DNA from: Spraguea lophii
Lineage: Eukaryota; Microsporidia; Spragueidae
Reading direction: 5' to 3'
Length of the DNA: 11,817 nucleotides
Assembly: GCA_001887945.1 (NCBI GenBank)
Contig: LDOQ01000044.1
Location: forward strand, 1-11,817
In this document: positions 1 through 6,409 of the stretch, piece after piece
Layout: each line of letters opens with the position of its first letter
Numbering within the stretch: the first letter of the stretch is position 1
The notes under the pieces: generated by a model
Told to the model about the DNA's origin: nothing
Seen by the model: only the letters and a program-made list of their open reading frames with translations
The model's database searches: none
Made by a program: the position numbers and the translations under genes

Positions 1-528
1 GAAATATATATCAATACATATTTAAGCATTAAAGCAGGAAATGGGTCTACTGGTGCCAAAGAAAAGATAACAGAAATAATTACAAAATTGAAGGATAATA
101 TACTTAGAGATATTACTGCAAACGGAAACGAAGAAGAAGAAGTGGAAACCTTTATAAAATGGAAATGTTTATTATCAGAAGAGCTTGGTTTTCAAAAAGA
201 AACATACTTATTTGCTGATCTTGATATGTCAAATAAAGATAAGCTTTACGATAAAAAATATATAATCGAGCAATTTTTTAGAAAATTTACTTTCCAGACC
301 ATAACAGATGAAATTAATAAATATCTGAAGATTGAAAAATTAGGTAACGAATTATATAATCAATTGAGTGGATATATCACTTATATTCACGGAGAAAACG
401 AAGAATTTAGTAAAATATTTGAAATTACTGACGATGGTAATTTCTTCCAACTACAGGATGAAGGTGCTCGTAAACTTTTAAGGTCAATGGGTTATCTTTA
501 TGAAGAAGAAAAGAATAATAACGAGTAA
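1..528 (+). CDS. Hypothetical protein, C-terminal part (5' end outside window)
   Basis: The frame is open from the first base of the window to a TAA at 526-528, giving 175 residues with no start seen, so this is the C-terminal end of a longer protein. I do not recognise the family. The chain is hydrophilic and mainly helical in character. It has an acidic EEEE run near residue 45 and ends in a Glu/Asn-rich tail (YEEEKNNNE). No membrane segment, zinc motif or known catalytic signature is visible. Reading frame and codon use are clean (TGG for Trp, no stops), which marks it as a real, probably expressed gene, in contrast to the eroded frames further right. A short AT-rich spacer follows it, then the Merlin element. 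An ordinary intracellular housekeeping or lineage-specific protein is possible; the sequence does not decide. Confidence 0.75.
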   Translation, partial: EIYINTYLSIKAGNGSTGAKEKITEIITKLKDNILRDITANGNEEEEVETFIKWKCLLSEELGFQKETYLFADLDMSNKDKLYDKKYIIEQFFRKFTFQTITDEINKYLKIEKLGNELYNQLSGYITYIHGENEEFSKIFEITDDGNFFQLQDEGARKLLRSMGYLYEEEKNNNE

Positions 529-775
529 TTCAATAATGATAGAGCGGAACACGATGGTTTTAAAAAATATGTTTGCATTAATCGAAAAATTTTTTTTTAA
601 TTGTTACGAATAAGATTAAAATAAGATATTAAAAATAAAATTTTTTAAACCTATTAATTAATGAAAACATATGATTAAATCACAGATAACTTTTTATATT
701 ATATATTCTCCTAAATCTTTTTAAATTTTTATTATATACTATTAATAATAGATAATGATATTATTATAATTGTTA

Positions 776-783
776 TTCTTTTC
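776..783. repeat. Left 8-bp target site duplication of the Merlin-like element
   Basis: TTCTTTTC lies immediately outside the left inverted terminus and is repeated exactly at 1774-1781 outside the right one. Merlin/IS1016-type elements typically duplicate 8-9 bp, so the length fits. Confidence 0.9.
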
Positions 784-825
784 GGTAAAAGTTGCTTTGA
801 GGACCCCCTTTTTTGCGTTTATATA
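784..825 (+). repeat. Left terminal inverted repeat of Merlin-like element
   Basis: This 42-bp end begins GGTAAAAGTTGC and carries the run GAGGACCCCC then six T. It pairs with 1732-1773 except for one G/C difference at the eighth base and one C/T difference in the C-T run. Confidence 0.92.
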
Positions 826-900
826 GATAAAAAAAGATTTAATTAGTGTTTATTTGTTTGATCTTTCCCTTTTGATCGTGTAAAATTTTCTTAAATGGGC

Positions 901-1702
901 TCATATGAAATTTAAGAAATTTAAATTCCGAAATATGCCATAAAAGATTTTTTTAACATTAGTTCCTCGTGTTTTAACATATATCTTTAGTTTACACCAC
1001 AGATTTTCAATGTTTTGAGTGTGTATCTCTTTGTTTTCCGGGGACGCAAAATTTATTTTATGATTTACCCAAAACTGTTTAAATCCTATATTTTTAAGGC
1101 TAAGATACCCTTTCCAACCATCTGTCATTATCGTAGAATTCTTTTTTATATTTTTTAAAAGTATATTTTCAATGGGTTCACGGTTTCTTGTATGTACCAT
1201 TTCAAAAAACCATCGCCTAGAGGTTCGTGATATTCCACCAATGCACCATAATTGTTTAAAACATCGGCCAACATTTTACGTTCTTCTGCTAAAGCAACTT
1301 TCATCAACCTCCACTATGTCTTTATACCCACCTATTTTTTCATATTCAGTTTTATTAATAACAAGTTTTATAAGACCCATAACTTTGTTAATTAGTTTGC
1401 AGTCGACTTCAAGTTCATGTTTAATGTCTTTTATTCATGTTTCACGGGACCATTCATATATTATAAAAATTATATTTTTTTAGTGAGGTCCGTATACCTG
1501 AAAATACAGAACCATCTCGTATCAAAATAGATGTTTTATTACATCTTTTGGTTTGACAAACCCAGATTAATCCATACGATACCTTTTTACTCTTTAAATA
1601 CATCTCTTTTTTGCATTTTTTACATCTTCTTATTTTATAAATTACTCCTACATTGGAGGAGAAAGTAAAAAACTTATACGATAAATTAAGTTGTTCGTAC
1701 AA
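901..1702 (-). pseudogene. Merlin-like transposase, decayed (frameshift plus two in-frame stops)
   Basis: Read on the minus strand, the N-terminal piece (1702 to about 1454) has a zinc ribbon (CKKC, then C-x4-C near QTKRC) followed by IRDGSVFSG, typical of IS1016/ISXO2 transposases. A one-base shift in the A/T-rich stretch around 1465-1485 moves the reading to the frame used from about 1470 to 901. That frame holds the first catalytic Asp in VEVDESCF (about 1300), the second in MTDGWKGY (about 1117) and the third acidic position in HTQNIENLW (about 1005). It is crossed by TGA at 1435-1437 and TAA at 1276-1278 and ends at TGA 901-903. No ATG is seen at the N-terminus: the earliest readable start in that frame is a TTG at 1702, so the true start was lost or lies upstream of a further lesion. 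The catalytic acidic residues survive but a full protein cannot be made. Confidence 0.88.
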
Positions 1703-1731
1703 TGTTAATCTTGTAAACCTGTGTTATGTTT

Positions 1732-1773
1732 TATATAAACGCAAAAAGGGGGGTCCTCAAAGCAAGTTTTACC
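1732..1773 (-). repeat. Right terminal inverted repeat of Merlin-like element
   Basis: This is the reverse complement of the left terminus at 40 of 42 positions. Read inward from the element edge it starts GGTAAAACTTGC. Confidence 0.92.
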
Positions 1774-1781
1774 TTCTTTTC
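1774..1781. repeat. Right 8-bp target site duplication of the Merlin-like element
   Basis: TTCTTTTC is identical to 776-783 and directly adjacent to the right inverted terminus. Confidence 0.9.
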
Positions 1782-2097
1782 TGTAATTAAACTTTATTTT
1801 ACATAGTTTATATTATGAGTTAAAATAAACATAAGCATATAGAAAATATATAAAATATTATAAATTTTTAAAATCTAATATATTTATTCCATTATTTAAA
1901 GTTATATTCACTATTATTTGAATATACTTTTTATAAAATTTTTTTATTTCTTATTCCATACCAACTGCTATGATTTTAATAAAAACTATTTATAATAATA
2001 AAGTACTGAATATATAAAGATAAATAACCTATTATAATATCAGTAAATATAAATATAATATTTTTAAAAATTACATATTTTTCAATATTCTATCTCT
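1782..2097. other. AT-rich spacer without recognisable gene
   Basis: This stretch between the Merlin-like element and SINE copy A is AT-rich with dense stops in all frames. I see no RNA gene, repeat or protein motif in it. Confidence 0.6.
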
Positions 2098-2109
2098 ATT
2101 TTTTTTACC
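2098..2109. repeat. Probable target site duplication left of SINE copy A
   Basis: ATTTTTTTTACC matches 2599-2610 exactly (12 bp) and borders the 3' end of the minus-strand SINE copy. The eight T make a chance match easier than usual, so this is less certain than the duplication around copy B. Confidence 0.55.
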
Positions 2110-2520
2110 AATGAAACTTTTATTTATCAAAGTCCCCTGGCCGGTTGCGGTTTACCATGGTTTGTGACCTTCGGTTCCTCGAGTGAATTTAAGCTTGTAC
2201 TAACTGGTTTCGCTACAGATATACATTAATCTCATCTTACCTTATGCCCAGAGTGTTAGGATTTTGCGTATGATGCGCGTCGCCCCCACTTTCAGCTCTT
2301 AAGGAATTCCCAGCCTCTTTCGTTGCATAATATTGGCCGAGTCACAAATCAATACAGGGATTGCAACTACATCAGCTAAACACTACTTTAATCTAGTAGC
2401 GGGCCGTCATACAAGGCACAGCTATGCTGCGCTATCGAAACCTCACCCACTCAACAACCTTTTTCTTCTCTTCTGCGTTTATTATTATTATTTTTTTGTT
2501 GTGAAATTTTTCTGGATGAG

Positions 2521-2531
2521 GGATTCAAACC
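2521..2531 (-). promoter_or_regulatory. RNA polymerase III B box, SINE copy A
   Basis: On the minus strand this reads GGTTTGAATCC. It differs from the canonical GGTTCGAATCC of copy B by one C-to-T change at a CpG, so this copy may be a weaker promoter. Confidence 0.7.
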
Positions 2532-2559
2532 CGCCAGGCTCGGGGTTTGGTTACCACGA

Positions 2560-2570
2560 CCACTGGGCCA
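2560..2570 (-). promoter_or_regulatory. RNA polymerase III A box, SINE copy A
   Basis: On the minus strand this reads TGGCCCAGTGG, fitting the tRNA D-arm consensus TRGYNNARNNG. It begins 10 bases into the shared element, where an internal A box is expected. Confidence 0.72.
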
Positions 2571-2598
2571 GGCGGGACTTCTTTTGATATCATAAAGA

Positions 2599-2610
2599 AT
2601 TTTTTTTACC
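2599..2610. repeat. Probable target site duplication right of SINE copy A
   Basis: ATTTTTTTTACC equals 2098-2109. It sits 19 bases beyond the point where homology to copy B ends. Confidence 0.5.
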
Positions 2611-3024
2611 CAAATATTATATCCTTTTATACAGATTAAAAATCATTACCATTCATAAGAATCATATAATCTTAGGTTTAGCTAACTAACTTATAAATCC
2701 TTTACACGATAGACAAAGATACTCGGTTTTAATCAATCGATATTCAATTAAAAAACCAATCGTTTTCATCTCATTCGACATGATATTTTCCAAGTAATTT
2801 TCTGTAATATTTAAAATTTAAAATTATTTATTTGTTAAGAAGATTAAAATTTTTAATAACGTTTTAATTTTCATCTGGTCTTTTTTGATTGTATATATAA
2901 CCAAGATTAGGATATTTGACATCTTAAAATACGAAAAACTTGTATTAAAAGGGTTGCTACATATATGTTAATATTAATTTATCTTATATTCCCAAAAATT
3001 CGAGCTTTACATATGGTGTAATCA
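2611..3024. other. AT-rich spacer without recognisable gene
   Basis: Stops are frequent in all six frames. I found no tRNA, repeat or protein motif here. Confidence 0.55.
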
Positions 3025-3262
3025 TAATTCCATCACACATAATGAGATTCTGATTTACATTTTGGTATTGTGACAGAGTCCCTCATCAATACAAAGATTG
3101 CATCATAACAATTAAATATTTTTTTTTGACATGACAATGGGATTATCGTACAAATTATAACCACGTTATGCTATTGAACCTTTACTCACAAAACTCGTAT
3201 TTTCTCATATTTTACCCTGTTCTAGGGGTTTCCGACTTGAAATTTCCTGTGTGGGATCCAAA
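3025..3262 (-). mobile_element. Ancient, heavily diverged SINE copy C
   Basis: Several blocks occur in the same order and orientation as in copy A. GAGTC, a four-base gap and ATCAATACA-xx-GATTGCA lie around 3076-3102. TCGTACAA lies around 3146-3153. TATGCTATTGAACCT and ACTCACAAAACTC lie around 3167-3196. GAAATTTCCTG and GGGATCCAAA lie around 3239-3262 and correspond to the B-box side. Between blocks the match is poor and small insertions or deletions occur. Neither end is clear and no target duplication can be seen. The A-box end (right side) has eroded away. The copy is far older than A and B, showing that the family has been active over a long period. Confidence 0.62.
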
Positions 3263-4054
3263 TTGTATAATTTAAAATTTATTATTACATAATTATATCA
3301 TATCGAATAACTTTATTATTGCCAATTAAATATTTTTAAAAAACTTTTGGTGGTAATGCTTTAATTAAAATTAACTCTATTTGATTGGTTAAATATACTT
3401 TGATCTACGAATGGAGAGTTTTAAAAAGATGTAATATGCGTGTAGACTGTAATTTATACACATATATATTATTCTTTTCTATGCTTATCACATGGTATGG
3501 TCTGATTATAATTTATACAAAAACTTATTTATGCATTTAAAAATAATTGGCCTTTTTTTCTTATAAAACCTTTATTTCCCTATAACCAGGTTCGGCATTA
3601 TCACAAAAAATTTTACTTATTATTGTTTAAAAACATTACAACGGTTTTATTAAAAGAGGTTAAATTAAATTATAACTATGTCGATAAATAACTACACATG
3701 CAACTTTAACACTATTAAAATAAATACAAGTCGAGACTCGTATATTTATGTTTATCATTGGTTCATATAATCATCTTTCTACAATATAAGTAATATTAAA
3801 TATATATTTATGTGTTTCAAAGTTTCTTTTCCTAATGAACCCAATTCTATTTACGTCGGAGGAAAGTTGAGTTTTAGATAAATACACAGTGGCGGTTAAC
3901 GTAATATTTTCTAGAAATATCATTTGGTTGTTAATCATATGCTTTTGTATTTTATATAACTTGAGAACCAAGTATTATTTATTCAAAGATCTATATATAG
4001 AATGATAATATATCGAATATTTCTTATATTATCAACTTATAAATTTAGTTGTAA
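3263..4054. other. AT-rich region, no gene supported
   Basis: Only short open frames occur: about 51 codons at 3385-3540 on plus, and 66 codons at 3771-3971 on minus starting from TTG. At this base composition such lengths are expected by chance. The minus frame continues to about 3660 with a single TGA, so a very old coding relic is conceivable but not supported. Confidence 0.5.
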
Positions 4055-5520: not shown

Positions 5521-5891
5521 ATGAATAATAAAATAAAATATATTTTAATAACAATTATAACAATATTTTGTATTCTAAATTGTATTTACATAGGATATTG
5601 TTGTTTTTCTAAAGATAATAGGAATAAAGAGAATGATAAATGTGATATGGATAGTAACGTAGAAGGAACTAAGACGGGAAATAGTTTAGATTTAACTGAG
5701 ATTGGAGAAGAAAAAGAAAATAAGTTGCATCCTGTTATAACTAAAAACACTATATTAAAAGAAGACAGTGTTATTAAACATAAAGATGACGAAGTAGGAC
5801 AACAAAAAATAAATGAGGAAATGAAAAAATCAAATGATGATGATAATTTTGTTGATGGTAAAAAAATTATTTTTGATGAGAAAATACACAA

Positions 5892-5904
5892 AACAAATAT
5901 TCTT
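5892..5904. repeat. Left 13-bp target site duplication of SINE copy B
   Basis: AACAAATATTCTT is identical to 6397-6409. It lies inside the reading frame of the 5521 gene and ends exactly at a codon boundary. Confidence 0.93.
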
Positions 5905-5913
5905 AGTCCCGCC

Positions 5914-5924
5914 TGGCCCAGTGG
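5914..5924 (+). promoter_or_regulatory. RNA polymerase III A box, SINE copy B
   Basis: TGGCCCAGTGG matches the A-box consensus TRGYNNARNNG at the position of a tRNA D arm, 10 bases from the element's 5' end. Transcription would start near 5905. Confidence 0.8.
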
Positions 5925-5957
5925 TCGTGGGGTGGTAACCAAACCCCAAGCCTGGCG

Positions 5958-5968
5958 GGTTCGAATCC
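5958..5968 (+). promoter_or_regulatory. RNA polymerase III B box, SINE copy B
   Basis: GGTTCGAATCC is a perfect B box (consensus GGTTCGANNCC). It begins 44 bases after the A box begins, within the usual tRNA spacing. Confidence 0.85.
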
Positions 5969-6396
5969 CTCATCCAGAAAAATTTTCAAAACAAAAAAAC
6001 AATAATAATAAACGGAGAAGAGAAGAAAAAGGTTGTTGAGTGGGTGAGGTTTCGATAGCGCAGCATAGCTGTGCCTTGTATGACGGCCCCGCTACTAGAT
6101 TAAAGTAGTGTTTAGCTGATGTAGTTGCAATCCCTGTATTGATTTGTGACTCGGCCAATACTATGCTATGCAACGAAAGAGGCTGGGAATTCCTTAAGAG
6201 CTGGAAGTGGGGGCGGCGACGCGCACCAGACGCAAAATCCTAACACTCTGGAGCATAAGGTAAGATGAGATTAATGCATATCTGTAGCGAAACCAGTTAG
6301 TACAAGTTTAATTTCGCTCGAGGAACCGAAGGTCTCAGACCATGGTAGGCCGCAACCGGCCAGGAAGCTTTGATAAATAAAAGTTTCATTCGTAAT

Positions 6397-6409
6397 AACA
6401 AATATTCTT
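6397..6409. repeat. Right 13-bp target site duplication of SINE copy B
   Basis: AACAAATATTCTT is an exact copy of 5892-5904. The former gene's codons resume directly after it. Confidence 0.93.

Follow-up and report, generated by a model that had tools for sequence, protein, structure and literature searches.

The window, 11,817 nucleotides long, is an entire contig (C65) of the 5.27-Mb Spraguea lophii assembly, which comprises 73 contigs. It carries a near-full-length SINE copy, which we call copy B, and two older relatives in the opposite orientation, with the following features.

2105..2579, minus strand: SINE copy A, older, 92% identical to copy B
2936..3260, minus strand: ancient partial SINE copy, profile positions 58-399, E 7.2e-17
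5892..5904, plus strand: left 13-bp target site duplication of copy B, AACAAATATTCTT
5905..6396, plus strand: SINE copy B, near full length
5914..5924, plus strand: A-box-like Pol III sequence TGGCCCAGTGG, exact in 42 of 44 copies
5958..5968, plus strand: B-box-like Pol III sequence GGTTCGAATCC, exact in 42 of 44 copies
5977..6030, plus strand: A-rich linker from head to body, placed by eye
6031..6316, plus strand: central body, GC-richer in sequence, with no Rfam match at E<=1
6317..6365, plus strand: block common to the SINE and the 3' untranslated region (3'UTR) of a LINE, 86% identical over 49 bp, E 2.4e-11 for the window alone
6317..6365, plus strand: double hairpin predicted in the consensus by folding
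6364..6387, plus strand: terminal hairpin with stems GAAGCTTT/AAAGTTTC and loop region GATAAATA, resembling the final LINE bases
6397..6409, plus strand: right 13-bp target site duplication of copy B, AACAAATATTCTT

An earlier sequence-only reading of the window had described A and B boxes, an A-rich linker, a GC-richer body and exact 13-bp duplications in copy B, as well as a second near-full copy and an ancient third one, and we recovered all of them. Copy B differs from the majority consensus by 0.4% substitutions and five gap columns, and copy A by 4.2% substitutions. The A tail is almost absent from copy B, which ends in CGTAAT, and the terminal hairpin includes AATAAA immediately 5' of the A tail. 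A target duplication was sought around copy A, and none was clear. A profile derived from 12 copies detected the ancient copy and gave no matches in the reversed-sequence control. Rfam searches of the window returned no match at E<=1.

Two other features of the window were noted. A Merlin/IS1595-like DNA transposon at 784-1773 is bounded by 42-bp inverted repeats (784-825 and 1732-1773) and contains an ISXO2-like transposase fragment on the minus strand (901-1200). An open frame at 5521-6039 contains the start of copy B, its final ~44 residues being encoded by the SINE; its N-terminus appears hydrophobic, and none of 19 candidate protein relatives reached E<=0.001.

The element is very probably a non-autonomous tRNA-type SINE of the Spraguea genome, about 487 bp long plus an A tail. 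A search of the whole assembly, as the sequence-only reading had proposed, uncovered a dispersed family. It gave 455 first-look candidates, the best 40 of which were scored; all 40 were near full length with 97-100% identity, and four older pieces (73-82%) lay beside some of them. Copies are found on many contigs, and their consensus of 486 bp falls within the range of about 100-700 bp that is typical of SINEs. Motifs were also counted by pattern search allowing up to three mismatches, with reversed-sequence controls. The head 18-mer matched 198 times (control 0), although some of these matches may be real tRNA genes, the body 25-mer 123 times (control 0) and the tail 19-mer 541 times (control 64). 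The tail count may exceed the others both because AT-rich sequence is slower to erode in an AT-rich genome and because the tail motif is also present outside SINEs. The exact body 25-mer was absent from viral and prokaryote contigs, a result uninformative for other microsporidia.

The tail motif was observed without a SINE body at 498-516 of one locus (L124, C1:75100-75660). A 162-bp query around it matched itself and 22 other places at 72-97% identity; at least some of these are SINE tails, and others continue beyond the tail on both sides. The L124-type sequence is possibly another small repeat.

Fifteen profile hits, two of which may represent one broken copy, were obtained in 158 kb made up of 8 reverse transcriptase loci and 30 tRNA loci, which corresponds to ~500 copies per genome (Poisson range about 280-820, from a non-random sample). 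With the window included, SINE hits occupy 4.3% of this likewise non-random sample of 170 kb. The reverse transcriptase loci (67 kb) contributed three hits and the tRNA loci (91 kb) 12 hits in nine loci, compared with ~8 expected from 455 copies; this difference indicates no clear preference for tRNA genes, though some targeting of them may occur. Seven contigs (C3, C19, C35, C46, C36, C22 and C15) appear to begin inside a SINE copy, with the body motif at exactly 76-100 in the first four. The assembly therefore breaks on the SINE, and its copy number is probably underestimated.

The 44 near-full copies that we examined are copies A and B of the window, 39 further scored copies and three from the reverse transcriptase loci. 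Their substitutions from the majority consensus range from 0.4% to 4.2%, with a median pairwise difference of 1.8%; 40 of them lie less than 2% from the consensus, most having been chosen by similarity to copy B. Copies found without such a choice have identities to the consensus down to about 69%, so that the family as a whole spans about 69% to over 99% and its members differ widely in age. The element has a GC content of 46%, compared with 18% for its flanks (44 copies).

The same 44 copies served to test for target duplications; partial copies and L018, a duplicate of copy B, were excluded. Of the 44, 36 are flanked by an exact duplication, 9-17 bp long and adjoining the 5' edge, compared with 50 of 2000 mismatched-flank controls, and 32 of these 36 duplications are 12-15 bp long. 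They abut the 5' end of the element, the partner duplication following the A tail. No clear duplication was present in 8 of the 44 copies. The 3' A run, including the element's own last two A, is 6-18 nucleotides long in 41 copies and 2-3 in the remaining three, copy B included. The target-site motif is weak, with a T preceding the cut in 21 of 36 cases. Duplications and A tails of this kind are the marks that a non-LTR element leaves when it inserts by target-primed reverse transcription. Two findings that would have spoken against a retroposon family in the sequence-only reading did not materialize. The copies of the window are not the only ones, as many exist and 36 of 44 have their own duplications, nor do they correspond to a known coding or rRNA locus, with no Rfam match at E<=1 and no stop-free stretch longer than 72 codons in the consensus.

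The head of the element was compared with the tRNAs of the same genome. We take TGGCCCAGTGG at 5914-5924 and GGTTCGAATCC at 5958-5968 to match the Pol III A-box and B-box consensus sequences, and together they form a putative internal Pol III promoter. ARAGORN called no tRNA in the head, and Rfam gave no tRNA there at E<=1. Running ARAGORN on the 30 tRNA loci and on 24 of 27 other tRNA places yielded 46 distinct tRNA sequences. Against these, the best local score of the consensus head was 21.5 (Arg-UCG), compared with a maximum of 15.5 for 100 shuffles, and that of the copy A head was 18.5, barely above its shuffles (17.0). No source tRNA was found among the 46 sequences, and the predicted fold of the head showed no cloverleaf and was no better than those of shuffles. 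The head is thus tRNA-like chiefly at its promoter boxes. The description of the element as tRNA-headed, made in the sequence-only reading, holds in the sense that its A and B boxes are spaced as in a tRNA; the head is not scored as a tRNA, and the 46 sequences offered no source for it. The only run of four T in the 486-base consensus is at position 79, and none is located near the 3' end. The lack of T runs was considered as a Pol III signature and dropped, one T4 in 486 bases being uninformative.

Many SINEs, though not all, have a 3' region in common with a LINE of the same genome. Searches for reverse transcriptases in the assembly identified a telomerase, an LTR-type element and a LINE. 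The LTR-type element, on C73, has a protease, a reverse transcriptase and an RNase H, and elements on C44 and C48 resemble it by eye. The reading frame of the LINE, on C72, is cut by the contig end. Its reverse transcriptase matches LINE-1 ORF2 chains (E about 1e-9), and Pfam searches gave two matches that do not reach the Pfam cut-off, Exo_endo_phos_2 (E 0.0019) and RVT_1 (E 0.0018). In an APE-type non-LTR element, an AP-like endonuclease and a reverse transcriptase would share one ORF. The LINE fragment matched 20 proteins at E<=0.001, none of them informative as to its clade. A search for LINE C-termini gave 13 matches in the genome. The two on C63 are both in open frames of 232 amino acids near the two ends of that contig, a single stop interrupts each of those on C11 and C61, and the others are mostly short or broken. 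No complete LINE was found in the assembly, most pieces lying near contig ends or containing stops; the open frames near contig ends make it possible that an intact LINE was cut by assembly breaks. On C1, a C72-type reverse transcriptase fragment (66%) is located ~200 bp upstream of a C-terminus of the type found on C21, on the same strand, and this adjacency suggests that the two types belong to one LINE lineage.

Some additional observations were made on these contigs. Near the start of C21 (L066, about 482-3586), 5'-truncated, GC-rich LINE copies with A tails appear to be nested, with a short (TTAGG)3 stretch near 3070; this cluster is possibly subtelomeric. The telomerase frame (C2, L060:3725-7441, minus strand) encodes 1239 amino acids with RNA-binding and reverse transcriptase domains and very Asn-rich stretches. 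It adjoins a Sec61 alpha gene that is 100% identical to that of Spraguea lophii 42_110 over its length and whose named next relatives are those of microsporidia. A microsporidian SSU rRNA model gave no match in the assembly.

The comparison of the SINE 3' end with LINE 3' ends, also proposed in the sequence-only reading, revealed a common block. On C21, the LINE C-terminal frame is followed by a stop, ~40 bases and then 49 bp that are 86% identical to SINE positions 408-456 (E 8e-10). Overall, the 3' part of the SINE and the LINE 3'UTR have 49-55 bp in common at 84-86% identity (E about 1e-9). A genome search with the LINE 3' end gave 108 first-look candidates, and scoring 40 of them yielded 41 matches, 16 of LINE type and 25 at SINE copies. 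The latter cover only positions 159-214 of the query (84-86%, E 1.7e-9 to 6e-9). Thirteen of the 16 LINE-type matches reach the A tail, six of those starting at query position 162 or beyond. In the 13 aligned LINE ends, the common block is followed by ~100 bases that are missing from the SINE and then by a SINE-like terminal stretch, ATAAATAAAA-TTTC, ahead of the A tail. The LINE ends run into A tails, and two have duplications of at least 7 and 9 bp.

The resemblance between the very ends of the SINE and the LINE is only moderate, as tested with 10 LINE ends against 1013 A-run contexts. The three best LINE ends are equalled or beaten by two contexts and the next four by 5 and 12, and 108 contexts score as high as the three poorest; a common AATAAA signal could explain part of this resemblance. 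Folding predictions give the SINE consensus and one LINE piece the same double hairpin. Three bases differ within it, two of them unpaired and the third replacing a G-U with an A-U pair. Of 200 shuffles, 199 fold less well than the last 84 bases of the SINE (z -3.35); the LINE piece is unremarkable beside its own shuffles (z -1.12). For an old SINE copy (75% identical; z -0.44), the terminal hairpin is predicted and the double hairpin is not.

One alternative to a selfish SINE is that the LINE copied a functional non-coding RNA gene of the host and that the family consists of its retropseudogenes. No relative of the central body is known, and A and B boxes with A tails would suit any Pol III retropseudogene. 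Nevertheless, the 3' part in common with a LINE 3'UTR is the usual mark of a SINE, and identities from about 69% to over 99% reflect a long amplification history, making a host RNA origin very unlikely. It is even more improbable that the copies are LINE derivatives, 5'-truncated or internally deleted and devoid of a promoter of their own. Such an origin would account for the LINE-like 3' block, and the LINE copies on C8 and C6 are truncated near the same place; however, only about 50-80 of the 487 bases are LINE-like, and the near-full copies begin within a few bases of one point, with A and B boxes, a uniform 5' end that contradicts LINE truncation. Finally, a DNA-type MITE, a TRIM or LTR derivative, a satellite or a segmental duplication can practically be dismissed, since the duplications vary in length (9-17 bp), the copies have A tails and unrelated flanks, and no terminal inverted repeats were seen by eye, even though the element is non-autonomous and dispersed in a genome that harbors a Merlin-like transposon and an LTR-type element.

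The retroposon reading first made from the window is thus borne out by the many copies, their individual target duplications, their A tails and their LINE-related 3' part, and a mobilization pathway for the SINE may be proposed. RNA polymerase III would start near the 5' end of the element, driven by the internal A and B boxes, and the transcript would end with the LINE-like double hairpin, the terminal hairpin and the A tail. The reverse transcriptase/endonuclease of the resident LINE would recognize this 3' end, nick the target and, by target-primed reverse transcription, copy the SINE into the nicked site; duplications of 9-17 bp, most often 12-15, would result. The SINE may still be active at present. 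Its birth may have involved the same structure, with reverse transcription of a LINE RNA stopping at the double hairpin and switching to a Pol III transcript. Two truncated LINE copies, on C8 and C6, start at query positions 162 and 166, nearly coinciding with the start of the LINE part of the SINE. Because these truncations and the LINE part of the SINE start at almost the same base, the SINE may have originated by template switching at the double hairpin, a proposal resting on two cases.

The general class of tRNA-derived SINEs with LINE-derived 3' ends (PMC7245038, PMC3747384) is among the closest known systems. Members of this class likewise combine an A/B-box head with an unrelated body, a 3' part in common with a LINE of the same genome, an A-rich tail and target duplications. 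The Spraguea SINE differs from this class in its lack of an identifiable source tRNA, in its microsporidian host and in the absence of the ~100 bases that separate the two LINE-like blocks in the LINE. The AfuSINE2 families of Aspergillus fumigatus, as far as the accessible text describes them (PMC5063351), are tRNA-related fungal SINEs with short target duplications (4-14 bp); they are similar by description and belong to a host of another phylum. As in mammalian SINEs, according to the portion available of PMC8466645, AATAAA shortly precedes the A tail, but the Spraguea SINE has no run of four T near its 3' end. For S. lophii, the available text of PMC3749934 reports four non-LTR elements among the transcripts and an expanded LRR family. 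The non-LTR retrotransposons of S. lophii and Trachipleistophora hominis (PMC3749934, PMC3486916, PMC4202319, as presented in the parts available) are of the LINE class and could supply the enzyme. They are autonomous and protein-coding, unlike the Spraguea SINE.

The main texts, as available, of the reports on the S. lophii genome (PMC3749934) and Spraguea populations (PMC4948709) contain no mention of SINEs. The same is true of the available main texts of microsporidian transposon surveys (PMC4202319, PMC7313128), of the T. hominis report (PMC3486916) and of reports on newer assemblies (PMC12449221, PMC10542269, PMC13174016, PMC12558613). No microsporidian or Nosema SINE appeared among the literature titles and abstracts listed, PMC6416283 included. 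Within that same scope of main texts, titles and abstracts, the statement in the sequence-only reading that SINEs are not standard in microsporidia agrees with the literature. The family is possibly the first SINE of the phylum Microsporidia, and its LINE-related 3' block is newly recognized here. We lean, with some reservation, towards the full picture of a first microsporidian SINE family, mobile or recently silenced, riding the resident LINE and perhaps born by template switch.

Microsporidia are a textbook case of genome reduction. In this microsporidian, nevertheless, a parasitic element without any protein product has reached hundreds of copies. The SINE accounts for some of the breaks in the assembly, several contigs beginning inside copies, and it may make up much of the repeat fraction of Spraguea genomes, given as roughly 4% in the available text of PMC4948709. 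Its copies would serve as presence/absence markers for Spraguea populations, and the SINE and LINE form a compact pair for studying the RNA structure recognized by a LINE enzyme.
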